A DNA stretch of 29,740 nt. It comes from a virus. The notes below the pieces were generated by a model. It made no database searches and had not been told where the DNA came from. It saw nothing but the letters and a program-made list of their open reading frames with translations. The stretch spans positions 1 to 29,740 of IMG/VR virus record IMGVR_UViG_3300043466_000274; one strand, given 5' to 3'. Positions within the stretch are counted from its first letter, which is position 1, and each line of letters begins with the position of its first letter. A program made the position numbers and the translations under genes. Shown piece after piece: positions 5,928 through 13,681 of this stretch.

Positions 5928-7149
5928 AATAGAAAAAAGCATATTAGGACAAATATTTCTTTATCCTGATGCACACAACTACATAATGAAGATGAACCCA
6001 AACTGGTTTACTTCATTTAGAAAAGACGTAGTAATTACGATGCAGGAGTTTTACATGAGTAATCAACCTGTTTCACTTTCTACAATAGGCTTAAGACATA
6101 AAGAGCATATCAGAGAGATTGCAACAATGCAAAACTACGTGACTACAAACGTCCATTTAGAGAAAGAGATTCTTCAGCTTGAGATTGCCTATAAGAAAAA
6201 CAACATACAAAGTAAAGTTGCTCATTTAGATTTCTCCAAAGAACTAAACGAAATAATTTCGGACATCAATTTGATGGTTACCGAAAACACCGTTAACGTC
6301 AGCAGCAAGGCAACCGTTATTTCTTCAGTAGCAGGAAATGTCATAGACACTTTATACGATGCAGTTAAAAGAGGAACTAACATGACAGGTATCTCTACTG
6401 GATGGAAGTACTTGGATAAGTACTTGGGTGGATGGAATAAGGGTAATATGGTTGTGATAGCAGGTAGACCTGGAAGCGGTAAAACTGCAATCGCTTTATC
6501 ACTTGCTATTGACTGCTGCCGTCATGCAAAGGCTTTATTTATTTCTCTTGAAATGTCAAAAGAAGAACTTGCAAAACGCTACCTTTCATTTATTGCAAAT
6601 GTCGAAAACTACAAAATTCGTAGTGCCAGAGTAACTGAAACGGATTTAAAAGAAATCACAGATAGGCTTTACGGAATGAACATGGACTTCTTTCTTGACG
6701 ATGGTAGTAATAGCGATATTAACGACATTGTAGCGAAGATTAAACTACACAAGGCTAAACATGGTCTTGACATTGTATTTATTGACTATATGCAGTTAAT
6801 TAAAAGTCATCAGAAAATAAGAGAACAAGAGATTGCACACATTAGCAGAACACTTAAACTTTTGGCAAAGGAGTTAGGAATAACAATAATAGCACTCGCA
6901 CAACTTTCAAGAGAAACTGAAAAAAGAGCTGAAAAGAAACCAATGCTTTCAGACTTAAGAGAGAGTGGTCAAATTGAACAAGATGCTGATATTGTTTTAT
7001 TTCCATTTAGACCAGCGTATTACTCAGACGATAAGCCTGAGATTGAAATGGATGCTGAGTTAATTATAGGCAAGAATAGACATGGGCAATGTGTATCTGT
7101 ACCAATGTCATTTGAAGGACGTTACACACGTTATAAAGAAATACTATGA
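5920..7149 (+). CDS. dnaB: replicative DNA helicase, DnaB family
   Basis: 409-aa hexameric 5'-3' helicase that unwinds the phage replication fork. Residues 1-90 form the helical N-terminal domain (MIEIEKSILGQIFLYPDAHN). The RecA-like domain shows TGISTGWKYLDKYLGGW, Walker A AGRPGSGKT at about 182-190, LFISLEMSKEELAKR (motif H1a/H2 region), Walker B VFIDYMQLI, and LAQLSRETEKR followed by SDLRESGQIEQDADIV (motif H3/H4 with arginine finger region). It is slightly shorter than bacterial DnaB (about 450-470 aa), as phage versions often are. It overlaps the loader-like gene by 8 nt and the methyltransferase by 4 nt (ATGA). Confidence 0.96.
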   Translation: MIEIEKSILGQIFLYPDAHNYIMKMNPNWFTSFRKDVVITMQEFYMSNQPVSLSTIGLRHKEHIREIATMQNYVTTNVHLEKEILQLEIAYKKNNIQSKVAHLDFSKELNEIISDINLMVTENTVNVSSKATVISSVAGNVIDTLYDAVKRGTNMTGISTGWKYLDKYLGGWNKGNMVVIAGRPGSGKTAIALSLAIDCCRHAKALFISLEMSKEELAKRYLSFIANVENYKIRSARVTETDLKEITDRLYGMNMDFFLDDGSNSDINDIVAKIKLHKAKHGLDIVFIDYMQLIKSHQKIREQEIAHISRTLKLLAKELGITIIALAQLSRETEKRAEKKPMLSDLRESGQIEQDADIVLFPFRPAYYSDDKPEIEMDAELIIGKNRHGQCVSVPMSFEGRYTRYKEIL

Positions 7150-8150
7150 GGCACGGAAGTTTATTCTCAGGTATAGGAGGATTTGATCTTGCTGCTGAGT
7201 GGATGGGTTGGGAAAACGTATTTCATTGCGAATGGATGGAGTTCCCTCGTAAAGTATTAGACTATTATTTTCCAAACGCTGATAGTCACATAGATATTTG
7301 TAAAACTGATTTTAAAAAATATGCAAACACAATTGACATTCTCACAGGAGGATTCCCTTGCCAACCATTCTCAATGGCAGGAAAAAGAAAAGGGAAAGAT
7401 GATGAACGCTACCTCTGGGGAGAAATGCTTAGAGCAATTCAAGAAATTAAACCCAAATTTGTCATTGCAGAAAACGTCTTTGGTATCACGAATATTGATG
7501 GCGGATTGGTATTCGAGCAGGTGTGCCTTGACTTGGAAGCTGAAGGGTACGAAGTTCAGCCGTTTATTATTTGTGCTGCAGCCAAAAATGCACCGCACAG
7601 ACGAGATAGGTGTTGGTTCATTGCTTTTAAAAACACCTTGCACAGCGGATGCCTACACGGAAGGAATGAGCAAGAAGGAGCAGAAATTTGGGAACAGCGG
7701 AACACTTGCACAAGAGGTGCAGACGGGATTCATTTATCAAAGGGGAATGCTACCAACACCAACGGCAATGGATTCAACGAATGCAACGGCAACGATGAAA
7801 TCAACACAGGTAAAGGAGGGGAGTATGCACTCGGTGACATTGAACAGGGCAATGTCAATGGGGATGTTGCCAACTCCGACAGCACAAATAATCAAGCACA
7901 GCCACAAAAAGGAATATTGGGACAAAAGAATAAAAGACGGAAGACAAGAAGATTTGTCGATGGTAATACACGGACACAATGGAATGAATTCCCAACTCAA
8001 TCCCCGATTTGTGGCGGAGATGATGGGCTTCCCACCGAACTGGACGGAATTACCTTTTCAAAGTGGAGAGCAGAAAGTATCAAAGGATACGGAAACGCAA
8101 TAGTACCACAAGTAGCATTAGAACTTTTTAAAATTATAGAAACAATATGA
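7146..8150 (+). CDS. C5 cytosine-specific DNA methyltransferase
   Basis: 334-aa enzyme that transfers a methyl group from SAM to C5 of cytosine in DNA, probably protecting phage DNA from host restriction. Motifs in order are: I LFSGIGGFD (5-13), IV GGFPCQPFS with catalytic Cys72, VI AENV (E109-N110), VIII HRRDRCWFIA, then a low-complexity target-recognition stretch, and IX/X FPTQSPICGGDDG, ITFSKWRAESIKGYGN and AIVPQVALELF. All ten-motif landmarks are in one open frame, so the gene is intact. The central part (about residues 165-275) is rich in N, G, D and Q (NATNTNGNGF, VANSDS), unlike the compact TRDs of bacterial enzymes. A second frame inside it is also highly suggestive of coding (separate entry). 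It is ATGA-coupled to dnaB and to the DnaA-like gene. Confidence 0.95.
   Translation: MRHGSLFSGIGGFDLAAEWMGWENVFHCEWMEFPRKVLDYYFPNADSHIDICKTDFKKYANTIDILTGGFPCQPFSMAGKRKGKDDERYLWGEMLRAIQEIKPKFVIAENVFGITNIDGGLVFEQVCLDLEAEGYEVQPFIICAAAKNAPHRRDRCWFIAFKNTLHSGCLHGRNEQEGAEIWEQRNTCTRGADGIHLSKGNATNTNGNGFNECNGNDEINTGKGGEYALGDIEQGNVNGDVANSDSTNNQAQPQKGILGQKNKRRKTRRFVDGNTRTQWNEFPTQSPICGGDDGLPTELDGITFSKWRAESIKGYGNAIVPQVALELFKIIETI
7321..8103 (+). CDS. putative overprinted ORF inside the C5 methyltransferase gene (+1 frame)
   Basis: This 260-codon open frame starts with ATG and lies wholly within the methyltransferase gene, one base out of phase. Its translation carries CALTWKLKGTKFSRLLF, MLPTPTAMDS, a second MLPTPTA, LNPRFVAEMMGFPPNWT and ELPF, ending SKDTETQ. 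From memory, these LPTPTA and MGFP-x-x-WT-x-LPF patterns occur in proteins annotated with or as phage cytosine methyltransferases. The same bases encode canonical C5 motifs in the main frame: MLPTPTA at 7864-7884 is VANSDS in the main frame, and LNPRF...WTELPF from 7996 is QSPICGGDDG...TFSKWR. No ribosome site or clear slippery sequence is visible. Alternatives are an untranslated shadow kept similar by main-frame conservation, or a frame used for an isoform with another recognition domain. Confidence 0.35.
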   Translation: MQTQLTFSQEDSLANHSQWQEKEKGKMMNATSGEKCLEQFKKLNPNLSLQKTSLVSRILMADWYSSRCALTWKLKGTKFSRLLFVLQPKMHRTDEIGVGSLLLKTPCTADAYTEGMSKKEQKFGNSGTLAQEVQTGFIYQRGMLPTPTAMDSTNATATMKSTQVKEGSMHSVTLNRAMSMGMLPTPTAQIIKHSHKKEYWDKRIKDGRQEDLSMVIHGHNGMNSQLNPRFVAEMMGFPPNWTELPFQSGEQKVSKDTETQ

Positions 8151-8632
8151 ACTACCAAGCAGACCTAATCACACTAAAAGCCCAACACGCTCGAATGAAA
8201 GCAAGATATGAGGCTTTGTTAGCAAAGAAAGACAATGAGATTGAAACTCTCCGCAACATGATCATTAACCCTAAAAAGATAGTTAAGATAGAGCATAAGA
8301 GCCTTGATAACCTTATGAGGATAGTTTGTGATGTAATCAACGTATTACCGCAAGAATTCTTCTCAAGATGCAGGAGACAAGAGTATGTACTTGCACGTTC
8401 TTTCTTCTGCTACTTTGCCAACGTACACATGAAAGAGGCAACAGTTAAAATTGGGTTGTACATTAATCGTGATCACAGCACCGTAATTCATGGACGTAAC
8501 ATGATAGGTGACCTGATTCACATCGGAAGTAAATACGAGATGAAACTTTTTAAAGAGATAGAAAAGCAACTCCATGAGATTCCTGACACTTACAATGAGG
8601 AGGTCTTACGAATCAATCCATATTTGTCTTAA
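8147..8632 (+). CDS. protein with DnaA domain IV-like DNA-binding region
   Basis: 161 aa. Residues 1-45 are a charged coiled-coil segment (LKAQHARMKARYEALLAKKD). Residues about 55-155 resemble DnaA domain IV: RRQEYVLARSFFCYFANVHM corresponds to helix 2, and INRDHSTVIHGRNMIGDLI is the signature helix, with the D-H-S-T-V core that contacts DnaA boxes. No AAA+ ATPase domain is present, so it cannot act as a normal DnaA initiator. It may bind origin DNA for the phage, compete with host DnaA, or act as a repressor. It lies in the replication cluster and is ATGA-coupled to the methyltransferase gene. Confidence 0.78.
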   Translation: MNYQADLITLKAQHARMKARYEALLAKKDNEIETLRNMIINPKKIVKIEHKSLDNLMRIVCDVINVLPQEFFSRCRRQEYVLARSFFCYFANVHMKEATVKIGLYINRDHSTVIHGRNMIGDLIHIGSKYEMKLFKEIEKQLHEIPDTYNEEVLRINPYLS

Positions 8633-8723
8633 CACAGATGAAGATTTGATGTACTACTACAAAAAGTATATTAAACAAGGATGGCAACTTTATTCAATTG
8701 ACGATTCAGATAGAATAATATGA
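8595..8723 (+). CDS. small hypothetical protein, 42 aa
   Basis: A 42-codon ORF (MRRSYESIHICLNTDEDLMY, then YYKKYIKQGWQLYSIDDS) bridges the gap between the DnaA-like gene, which it overlaps by 38 nt, and the PAPS-reductase-like gene, with which it shares the ATGA overlap at 8720-8723. That overlap, repeated throughout this genome, is the main reason to call it. Later in-frame ATG codons would give a shorter product. No family is recognised. Confidence 0.5.
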   Translation: MRRSYESIHICLNTDEDLMYYYKKYIKQGWQLYSIDDSDRII

Positions 8724-9466
8724 ATGTAATAAATTTTAGCGGTGGCAGAACAAGTGCTTACTTGACCAAACGTCTAATTGATGAAGGCGGTGAATACCTT
8801 GTTACATTTCAAAATACAGGTAAGGAGTTACCACAAACACTTGACTTTGTAAATGAATGCGACAAGAGATGGAATCTTGAAATAGTTTGGTTAGAATATC
8901 GTAAACCTGCAACTTTTGAAGTAGTGACATATGAGACAGCTTCACGCAATGGAGAGCCATATACTCAACTATTAGAACAAAGACCTGCTTCTATTCCTAA
9001 TATGCAATTTAGATACTGCACAATGGAACTAAAGATAATGACTCTTAAGCGTTATCTTAAAAGCATAGGAGTTACTGATTACACTTCATTTAATGGGATA
9101 CGTTATGATGAGCCTCGTAGATGGCAAAAAGTAAAAGACAGCGATATTGATGTAGAACTGCCTTTAGTTAAATGGAAGGTAACAAAGAAAGACGTCTTGA
9201 ATTGGTGGAAACTACAAGACTTTGATTTGATGGTTAACGAGCCTTACGGAAATTGTGACTGCTGCTTTTTAAAAGGTAAGGGTAAACTTGCAACAATAGC
9301 TAAAGAAAAGCCAGAGTTGTTTGATTGGTGGATTGACATAGAAAACAAAAGCGGTCATCAATGGAAAAAGGAAATCACCTATGAACAAATAAAAGAAAAG
9401 GCACAAAGTCAATTAGGTTTATGGGATAACGATCCGTCTTTTGAATGCTTTTGCAATGTAGACTAA
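8720..9466 (+). CDS. PAPS reductase-like / adenine nucleotide alpha-hydrolase family protein
   Basis: 248 aa of the ATP-pyrophosphatase (PP-loop) fold. The N-terminal NFSGGRTSAYL holds the SGGxxS nucleotide loop at residues 7-12, and VTFQNTGKELPQTLDFVNEC and WLEYRKP follow as in phage PAPS-reductase-like and DndC-like proteins. Four Cys-rich spots (FRYCTMELK, YGNCDCCFLKGKG and a C-terminal ECFC) could hold a metal or an iron-sulfur cluster. The family uses ATP to activate sulfur or nucleotide substrates, and the specific reaction here is unknown. No other sulfur-metabolism or phosphorothioation (dndABDE) gene is visible, so it may work with host enzymes or in DNA/RNA modification next to the methyltransferase. 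It is coupled by ATGA to the preceding small ORF. Confidence 0.85.
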   Translation: MNVINFSGGRTSAYLTKRLIDEGGEYLVTFQNTGKELPQTLDFVNECDKRWNLEIVWLEYRKPATFEVVTYETASRNGEPYTQLLEQRPASIPNMQFRYCTMELKIMTLKRYLKSIGVTDYTSFNGIRYDEPRRWQKVKDSDIDVELPLVKWKVTKKDVLNWWKLQDFDLMVNEPYGNCDCCFLKGKGKLATIAKEKPELFDWWIDIENKSGHQWKKEITYEQIKEKAQSQLGLWDNDPSFECFCNVD

Positions 9467-12441: not shown

Positions 12442-12656
12442 CAACATATTTAGGTAATGCTTGGGAAGACCAATACGGTCTTAACGTAACAATCAACATC
12501 GAGAAATTAAACGCTGCAATTAAAAGCGGTGAGTTAGATATTAACAAGTACGGTGACGTAAAAGTAAGAGTAGGTAAATTGAAACTACCTAACGAAAAAA
12601 GCAAGGCAACACACTTTGTCGCTTTGCCAAAGCCTAAAAACGATATGCCTTTCTGA
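12438..12656 (+). CDS. small hypothetical protein, 72 aa
   Basis: 72 aa, apparently beta-rich (TTYLGNAWEDQYGLNVTINI, KYGDVKVRVGKLKLPNE), ending PKPKNDMPF. The pattern of short strands with a C-terminal proline-rich tail and acidic/aromatic end faintly recalls single-strand DNA-binding tails, but there is no OB-fold evidence. I associate the family with Bacteroidota phages, function unknown. The stop overlaps the glycosyltransferase ATG by one base. Confidence 0.6.
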   Translation: MTTYLGNAWEDQYGLNVTINIEKLNAAIKSGELDINKYGDVKVRVGKLKLPNEKSKATHFVALPKPKNDMPF

Positions 12657-13681
12657 TGAGGATACTTTGTTTGTTTGACGGATATACGGGAGTGAGCTTT
12701 CATAGGCTATACACTCCCTATGTTCGTATGCAGTTAGATTTGGGAGTTGAAGTAGACGTAAGCCATGATCAGAACGATTGGGTTAACATGGATTTTCAGA
12801 AGTATGATGTTGTAATTTTCAATCGATGGTTAGGCAGGTACCAATACAACATACTGCCAATTCTTGCAAAACTAAAAGTTCCTTACATAGTTGACTTGGA
12901 CGATTACTGGGTGCTACCAAAGTACAACCCTGCATATCAGTTCTATAGAGCATACATCAAGGACGGAGTTAAAAATGCTTTGACCTATGCTGATGGTGTA
13001 ATGGTCACTACCCCTCAACTTGCGGATAAGGTAACAGAGTTTTACAAAGGCGATAACATCTGCATTGCACCGAACGCTTTAGACTTCACCCAAGAGCAAT
13101 GGATGGGGTATGAGCAGCACGAACCTACAATAGGGTGGATAGGTGGAATAAGCCACGTAGAGGACTTAAAACTATTAAGCGGACAGATAGCACCACTTTG
13201 CGAAAAATACGGCTATAAGTTCTTAATGGGAGGTCACCACGAGAATAGTAGACTATGGGCAACAATGGAAGAGGCGATAACAGGACGCAAACAAAAAGAC
13301 AGACCTGATTGGTTTATTAGAAGAGAGGGAACTAACCCTGCTGCATACGGAAAGTTTTATGCTGAAATGGACATTGCACTTGCACCTTTGACTAATCAGC
13401 ATTTCAACAGATACAAGTCAGAGTTGAAAATCGTTGAGGCTGCCGCTTATCGTTTGCCTATTCTTGTTTCATCGGTAGAACCATACACTAACCACCGTAA
13501 CAATTTAGGAGTATTTTTTGTTACGAATAACGATTGGAAAACTCCTTTAGAGCAGTTAATGAAATCGGGCAAATCTAAAGAGGTAGGAAAGATTAATCAC
13601 GTATACTGCAACGAGCATCACAACATCCAGAGCATTAACAAAACAAGGTTAGAGTTTATTCAAAAAGTAATAGCACCCTAA
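12656..13681 (+). CDS. glycosyltransferase, GT-B / GT4-like
   Basis: 341 aa. The N-terminal half has an alternating strand/helix Rossmann pattern (MRILCLFDGYTGVSFHRLYT, VPYIVDLDDYW). The C-terminal half shows IGWIGGISHVEDLKLL, the GT-B donor-side glycine loop, and KSELKIVEAAAYRLPILVSS, the E-x7-E region that contacts the nucleotide-sugar in family GT4. It would move a sugar from an NDP-sugar to an acceptor; possible acceptors are modified bases, virion proteins or host surface glycans. Its location between small and large terminase genes is unusual and raises the possibility of recent insertion. Two copies of TAGCACCCT directly follow, spanning its stop. Confidence 0.85.
   Translation: MRILCLFDGYTGVSFHRLYTPYVRMQLDLGVEVDVSHDQNDWVNMDFQKYDVVIFNRWLGRYQYNILPILAKLKVPYIVDLDDYWVLPKYNPAYQFYRAYIKDGVKNALTYADGVMVTTPQLADKVTEFYKGDNICIAPNALDFTQEQWMGYEQHEPTIGWIGGISHVEDLKLLSGQIAPLCEKYGYKFLMGGHHENSRLWATMEEAITGRKQKDRPDWFIRREGTNPAAYGKFYAEMDIALAPLTNQHFNRYKSELKIVEAAAYRLPILVSSVEPYTNHRNNLGVFFVTNNDWKTPLEQLMKSGKSKEVGKINHVYCNEHHNIQSINKTRLEFIQKVIAP

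Follow-up and report, generated by a model that had tools for sequence, protein, structure and literature searches.

A phage C5-cytosine methyltransferase probably split between a catalytic chain and a recognition subunit nested in its +1 frame

Introduction

In C5-cytosine methyltransferases, the small domain holds the target-recognition region together with motif IX (PMC3404938). M.AquI (CYCGRG) is a split C5 methyltransferase made up of two chains, with the recognition region apart from the catalytic domain (PMC3404938). M.EcoHK31I (YGGCCR) likewise consists of two polypeptides; the large one contains motifs I–VIII and X, the small one contains motif IX, and the predicted recognition domain has been assigned to the large subunit (PMC3404938).

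Here, we analyze a 29,740-nucleotide stretch of viral DNA (IMG/VR record IMGVR_UViG_3300043466_000274, positions 1 to 29,740), referred to below as the window. A first-pass annotation of this DNA had drawn attention to two coding-like frames within a single methyltransferase gene, and both read as it claimed: a main frame of 334 aa at 7146–8150, called alpha here, and a +1 frame of 260 aa at 7321–8103, called beta, both on the plus strand, as are the features within them. The main frame was held to be a complete methyltransferase, and three readings were offered for the +1 frame, namely a true overprinted gene, a frameshift isoform with another recognition domain, and an annotation artefact. 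In 1995, Lee et al. reportedly described the small-chain gene of M.EcoHK31I as lying inside the large gene, in another frame, and both chains are said to be needed for activity.

Results

The main-frame gene

Alpha is the catalytic chain of a C5 methyltransferase. In profile searches, run for each frame separately as the first-pass annotation had proposed, its product matches PF00145 (3.5e-45), TIGR00675 (3.4e-37) and PHROG_363, and the +1 product matches PHROG_1008. In the alignment of alpha homologues, motif IV (PCQPFS; 7356–7373) is invariant, motif VIII (NAPHRRDRC; 7587–7613) is nearly so, and the G, N and A of motif X (GYGNAIVPQV; 8085–8114) are invariant. Motif IX is not seen in alpha in this alignment. 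Hence, the view of the main frame as complete with all motifs does not hold: motifs I–VIII and X are present, as expected of an M.EcoHK31I-type large chain, and the motif IX-like sequence lies in the +1 frame instead.

In the AlphaFold model of alpha, residues 1–166 form the catalytic fold, mostly with confidence, and residues 305–334, at the motif X end, form confident C-terminal helices. The recognition region between them is predicted without a confident fold (residues 167–291; 7644–8018), pLDDT being below 50 at residues 167–277, 281–283 and 285–291, and mostly near 30 over 167–277; main-frame constraint is weak over most of this span. The folded parts of the model align with M.HhaI (Z 18.8, 194 of 334 residues) and with M.HaeIII (Z 17.1). 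A monomeric C5 methyltransferase unites motifs I–VIII and X, motif IX and a recognition domain in one chain; alpha does not.

The locus is preceded by a DnaB-like helicase gene and followed by a PAPS-reductase-like gene (8720–9466). The latter and a glycosyltransferase-like gene at 12656–13681 possibly serve in DNA or surface modification. A short protein encoded downstream of alpha, at 8147–8632, matches PHROG_16091, an entry without function, and contains the sequence RDHSTVIHG, which we take to resemble the DnaA domain IV signature.

The nested +1 gene

Open between 7294 and 8103, the +1 frame has its first ATG at 7321. The beta product matches PHROG_1008, 'DNA methyltransferase', at 3e-28 (beta residues 3–249 to positions 36–286 of 329), and other betas, both nested and tandem, match this family at up to 6e-72. 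The motifs reported earlier for this frame are all present: MLPTPTA at 7747 and again at 7864, LNPRFVAEMMGFPPNWTELPF at 7996–8058, and TWKLKGTKFSRLLF. The dual reading reported for 7863–7884 is there too, with DVANSDS from 7863 opposite MLPTPTA at 7864. The earlier statement that database proteins contain both motif sets is borne out by the PHROG_1008 match and by Paenibacillus phages, where annotations exist for both frames, in some cases as a pair of methyltransferases and once as 'g62 internal gene'.

A cassette structure is evident in the alignment of betas. In the window, cassette 1 (LLKTPCTADAY...IYQRG; 7624–7746, bounds approximate) is followed by cassette 2 (MLPTPTAMDSTNATATMKSTQVKEGSMHSVTL...; 7747–7863), of a type that recurs at loci of several Bacteroidota and of a Lacticaseibacillus phage, and by cassette 3 (MLPTPTAQIIKHSH...; 7864–7992, bounds approximate). 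Betas hold one to five such cassettes with LPTP-like anchors at the head, and the number of anchors correlates with the length of beta (r 0.88). After the LPTP cassettes comes LNPRFVAEMMGFPPNW, which resembles motif IX and can be compared with LTPRECWRLQGFP in a monomeric Streptococcus phage enzyme. Within this segment (7996–8058), LNP.FV.EMMGFP is invariant among homologues. The motif IX-like sequence (LNPRFVAEMMGFP) thus sits in beta and not in alpha; the similarity is short, and the assignment draws on the pattern, on colinearity and on the tandem homologues described below. Structure prediction of beta alone, from 59 sequences, was poor (pLDDT 49), which leaves its fold unproven, and a comparison of the beta profile to PDB sequences found no relative among solved structures, yielding one chance match only.

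Selection in the two frames

Homologues were collected with the main frame alone, to avoid bias. Among 66 unique homologues, interior stops in the +1 frame average 0.38 per gene, as compared to 6.4 after within-gene shuffling of synonymous codons, and the few stops seen are located near the C-terminal end. The +2 frame of the same genes behaves like its shuffles (21.6 stops versus 22.3).

Rates of change at main-frame four-fold sites were obtained from differences among 62 genes under 95% identity. For alpha, the rate is 0.53–0.58 over codons 1–55, upstream of the overlap; 0.11 at codons 51–65, around the +1 start; 0.09–0.36 over codons 81–145; and 0.03–0.10 in most of codons 191–305, which correspond to the LPTP and motif IX region of beta. 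Past the beta stop, near codon 318, it is back to 0.45. As a neutral control, the helicase and downstream genes that flank alpha at these loci have rates of mostly 0.44–0.63 and show no comparable dip, except in one sparsely sampled terminal segment.

The two frames were also contrasted in 31 disjoint nearest pairs. Fisher p values are 2e-12 for codons 281–305, 4e-10 for codons 161–280 and 1e-4 for codons 111–160; rates at codons 161–280 are less secure than those at 59–160 and 281–305, the main-frame alignment being unreliable in the cassette region. At codons 281–305, the per-site rate is 0.216 for changes silent only in the +1 frame, 0.047 for changes silent only in the main frame, and 0.016 for changes that alter both; dNN/dNS for the +1 frame is ~0.07. 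Consistently, through most of codons ~165–305, alpha codons evolve faster at position 1, the third position in the +1 frame, than at position 3.

These synonymous-site and frame-contrast rates show strong purifying selection on the +1 protein and, from codon ~165 to 305, more constraint on the +1 frame than on the main frame. The check on selection in both frames that the first-pass annotation had called for, made on homologues, therefore comes out in favor of coding, with +1 stops rare and synonymous sites suppressed. The +1 frame at 7321–8103 is a real nested gene.

The start of the nested gene

The beta ATG (7321) is conserved in 62 of 62 homologues. This ATG demands that the overlapping Tyr codon of alpha be TAT and never TAC, as is the case in all 62. 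The stretch directly upstream is conserved and A/T-rich, and this leader together with the ATG (7297–7323) falls where the four-fold rate drops to 0.11. In the window, no Shine-Dalgarno sequence precedes the beta ATG, and no duplex with the anti-Shine-Dalgarno sequence is found there. Paenibacillus phages have GGAGGTG (Bloom) or GAGGTGT (Lily) 9–10 nt before the beta ATG, within alpha codons; in E. coli phage ESSI2, AAAGGAG lies 8 nt upstream of it; and Klebsiella phage KO-TP1 has ACGGAGT at the right distance, again within alpha codons. The presence of Shine-Dalgarno sequences at the internal start in phages whose hosts use them favors independent initiation over frameshifting.

Distribution and other layouts

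By tblastn, phages of Paenibacillus, Bacteroides and Lacticaseibacillus, among others, were found to match ~90% of the length of the +1 protein. Phages of Bacteroides, Paenibacillus, Lacticaseibacillus, Escherichia, Klebsiella, Rhodobacter and Synechococcus have nested pairs, as do bacterial contigs, mostly of Bacteroidota; about 1–2% of bacterial genomes have a match, based on two genome samples. All 80 of the fetched viral loci that have an alpha alignment contain a nested beta in the +1 frame. When motif IX-like sequence is tallied by locus, using a pattern that misses divergent members and with 110 loci lacking a scored alpha, it is found in the +1 frame at 274 loci and in the main frame at 5, is recognized in neither at 21, and is never in both.

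In mycobacteriophage Alma (gp83/gp82) and Arthrobacter phage Andrew (gp43/gp44), alpha and beta-family genes are arranged in tandem. Here, the first protein stops after motif VIII, and the second, a member of PHROG_1008, contains LPTP elements, a motif IX-like segment and motif X. This layout ties the LPTP region to the position of the recognition domain in a C5 methyltransferase.

Other arrangements were also encountered. In Gordonia phage CheeseTouch, the +1 ORF holds the LPTP cassettes but stops before motif IX, which lies with motif X in the main frame; this is possibly an intermediate or rearranged form. In Bacteroides finegoldii plasmid NZ_OY725938, stops interrupt alpha and the nested +1 frame is open for 353 codons; this is probably a decaying copy. 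At two loci (L185 and L234), both frames shift together within the gene, as expected for frameshift-damaged copies. The methyltransferases of Streptococcus phage P0091 (L327:1152–1571) and its homologues (L332–L411) are monomeric, with motif IX in the main frame, and their genes contain a different, shorter nested +1 ORF over codons ~51–190, where the main-frame four-fold rate is 0.22–0.38 versus ~0.6 elsewhere. This ORF may be a second nested gene. Because of it, these methyltransferases, intended as a negative control, were used only as a control for motif IX. A control scan of Vibrio phage found no relatives.

Discussion

We find that a C5 methyltransferase locus of phages codes in two frames, that its +1 frame is under purifying selection and begins at a conserved internal start, and that motif IX, where recognized, belongs exclusively to one chain or the other. 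The locus is best explained as a split C5-cytosine methyltransferase composed of alpha and an independently started beta, with beta responsible for target recognition and motif IX; we put the probability of this reading at about 0.85. In such an enzyme, one transcript with two overlapping frames would give rise to two chains. Alpha would furnish the SAM-binding catalytic domain (motifs I–VIII) and the motif X helices, bridged by a long linker that is predicted to have no confident fold. Beta, starting at an internal ATG just upstream of the alpha motif IV codons and independently of the alpha start, would supply the missing small domain in trans: LPTP-headed cassettes, which are putative target-recognition elements and would thus set the target sequence, followed by motif IX. 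Alpha and beta would then associate in a physical complex to form one active, apparently orphan phage methyltransferase, whose methylation activity would probably protect or mark the phage genome. That beta acts as the small domain in trans, to make one active enzyme, we infer from what is known of that domain in C5 methyltransferases (PMC3404938).

Other explanations can be considered. Beta alone has no recognizable fold and no match among solved structures, and it could conceivably be a real overprinted gene of unrelated function, encoding a regulator or anti-restriction protein, for instance, with alpha being active by itself. This is unlikely, however, as alpha is without motif IX and a foldable recognition region, beta terminates in a motif IX-like segment, and the tandem beta-family proteins of the mycobacteriophage and Arthrobacter phage run on into motif X and are encoded directly behind an alpha that stops at motif VIII. 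Of the overprinted gene proposed in the first-pass annotation, then, the nested coding is upheld, but it does not overlie a complete methyltransferase; rather, the two products appear to share out the parts of an enzyme.

The +1 ORF often runs upstream of its ATG, in some homologues nearly to the alpha start, as might be seen if a programmed +1 frameshift fused the N-terminal half of alpha to the C-terminal half of beta, generating an isoform with a different recognition domain. We regard this as quite improbable. The internal ATG is kept in 62 of 62 homologues, with very low synonymous change nearby; Shine-Dalgarno sequences lie before it in phages of hosts that use them; and it is at this ATG, not at a shift site inside the gene, that constraint on the +1 frame sets in. 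Moreover, a frameshift product would stop short of motif X, which is located at or past the beta stop. Probably, then, the evidence rules against a frameshift isoform, although the idea of a recognition domain in the +1 frame was close in spirit: this domain looks like the only one the enzyme has, on a separate polypeptide. That the +1 ORF is non-coding, a by-product of conservation in the main frame spread by annotation, is hardly credible. The +1 frames of C5 methyltransferases can be fairly open, with long stretches free of stops in Vibrio phage 1.233, for example, but the suppression of synonymous change, the depletion of stops relative to shuffles, the excess of +1-silent over main-silent changes, and the greater constraint on the +1 frame over codons ~165–305 refute an annotation artefact.

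The alpha/beta locus is widespread among phages and prophages and represents a new form of a known two-part methyltransferase type; our literature search found no paper describing this nested methyltransferase family in phages. It provides a clear case of a same-strand nested gene in prokaryotes, with support from hundreds of loci, and one in which nesting makes mechanistic sense, as the two products would divide one enzyme. It can also explain why two unrelated-looking 'DNA methyltransferase' proteins in the databases come from a single piece of DNA, and why many phage methyltransferases look disordered in their recognition region. Annotation of one frame alone would drop the subunit thought to set the target, which matters for the prediction of phage methylation and for enzyme cloning. 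We lean toward the broader view that these loci make up a large and mostly unrecognized class of phage and prophage C5 methyltransferases with a +1-nested recognition subunit. In their recognition region, the two frames would swap their usual roles, the nested one encoding the conserved protein and the main one a filler linker, and cassettes could be exchanged nearly free of constraint from the catalytic chain. If so, nested recognition cassettes would make the target site rapidly evolvable.

How does this locus compare with known systems? PHROG_1008 is the same family as beta, and its entry gives no hint of the nesting seen in most examples met here, or of a subunit role. The folded parts of alpha resemble those of the monomeric enzymes M.HhaI and M.HaeIII; unlike alpha, both of these have the recognition domain and motif IX in the one chain. 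M.AquI is similar in having two chains, and homologues of the mycobacteriophage gp83/gp82 type show a comparable tandem split; however, the small chain of M.AquI carries motifs IX and X and is not nested, whereas here motif X is on alpha (8085–8114). In comparison with the account of M.EcoHK31I, one difference stands out: on the grounds of selection and structure, we assign the recognition region to the nested chain, where it would consist of one to five swappable cassettes. The corresponding region of alpha has no confident fold and bears +1-frame constraint; a missing predicted fold is, of course, no proof of an absent domain. In the sequence features compared, the locus otherwise resembles M.EcoHK31I. 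By description, the large chain has motifs I–VIII and X and the small chain has motif IX, the same division of motifs that we find in the window between alpha and beta; and, reportedly, its small chain too is nested within the large gene, in another frame. Based on this published description, rather than on sequence homology, the locus in the window most likely works like M.EcoHK31I.
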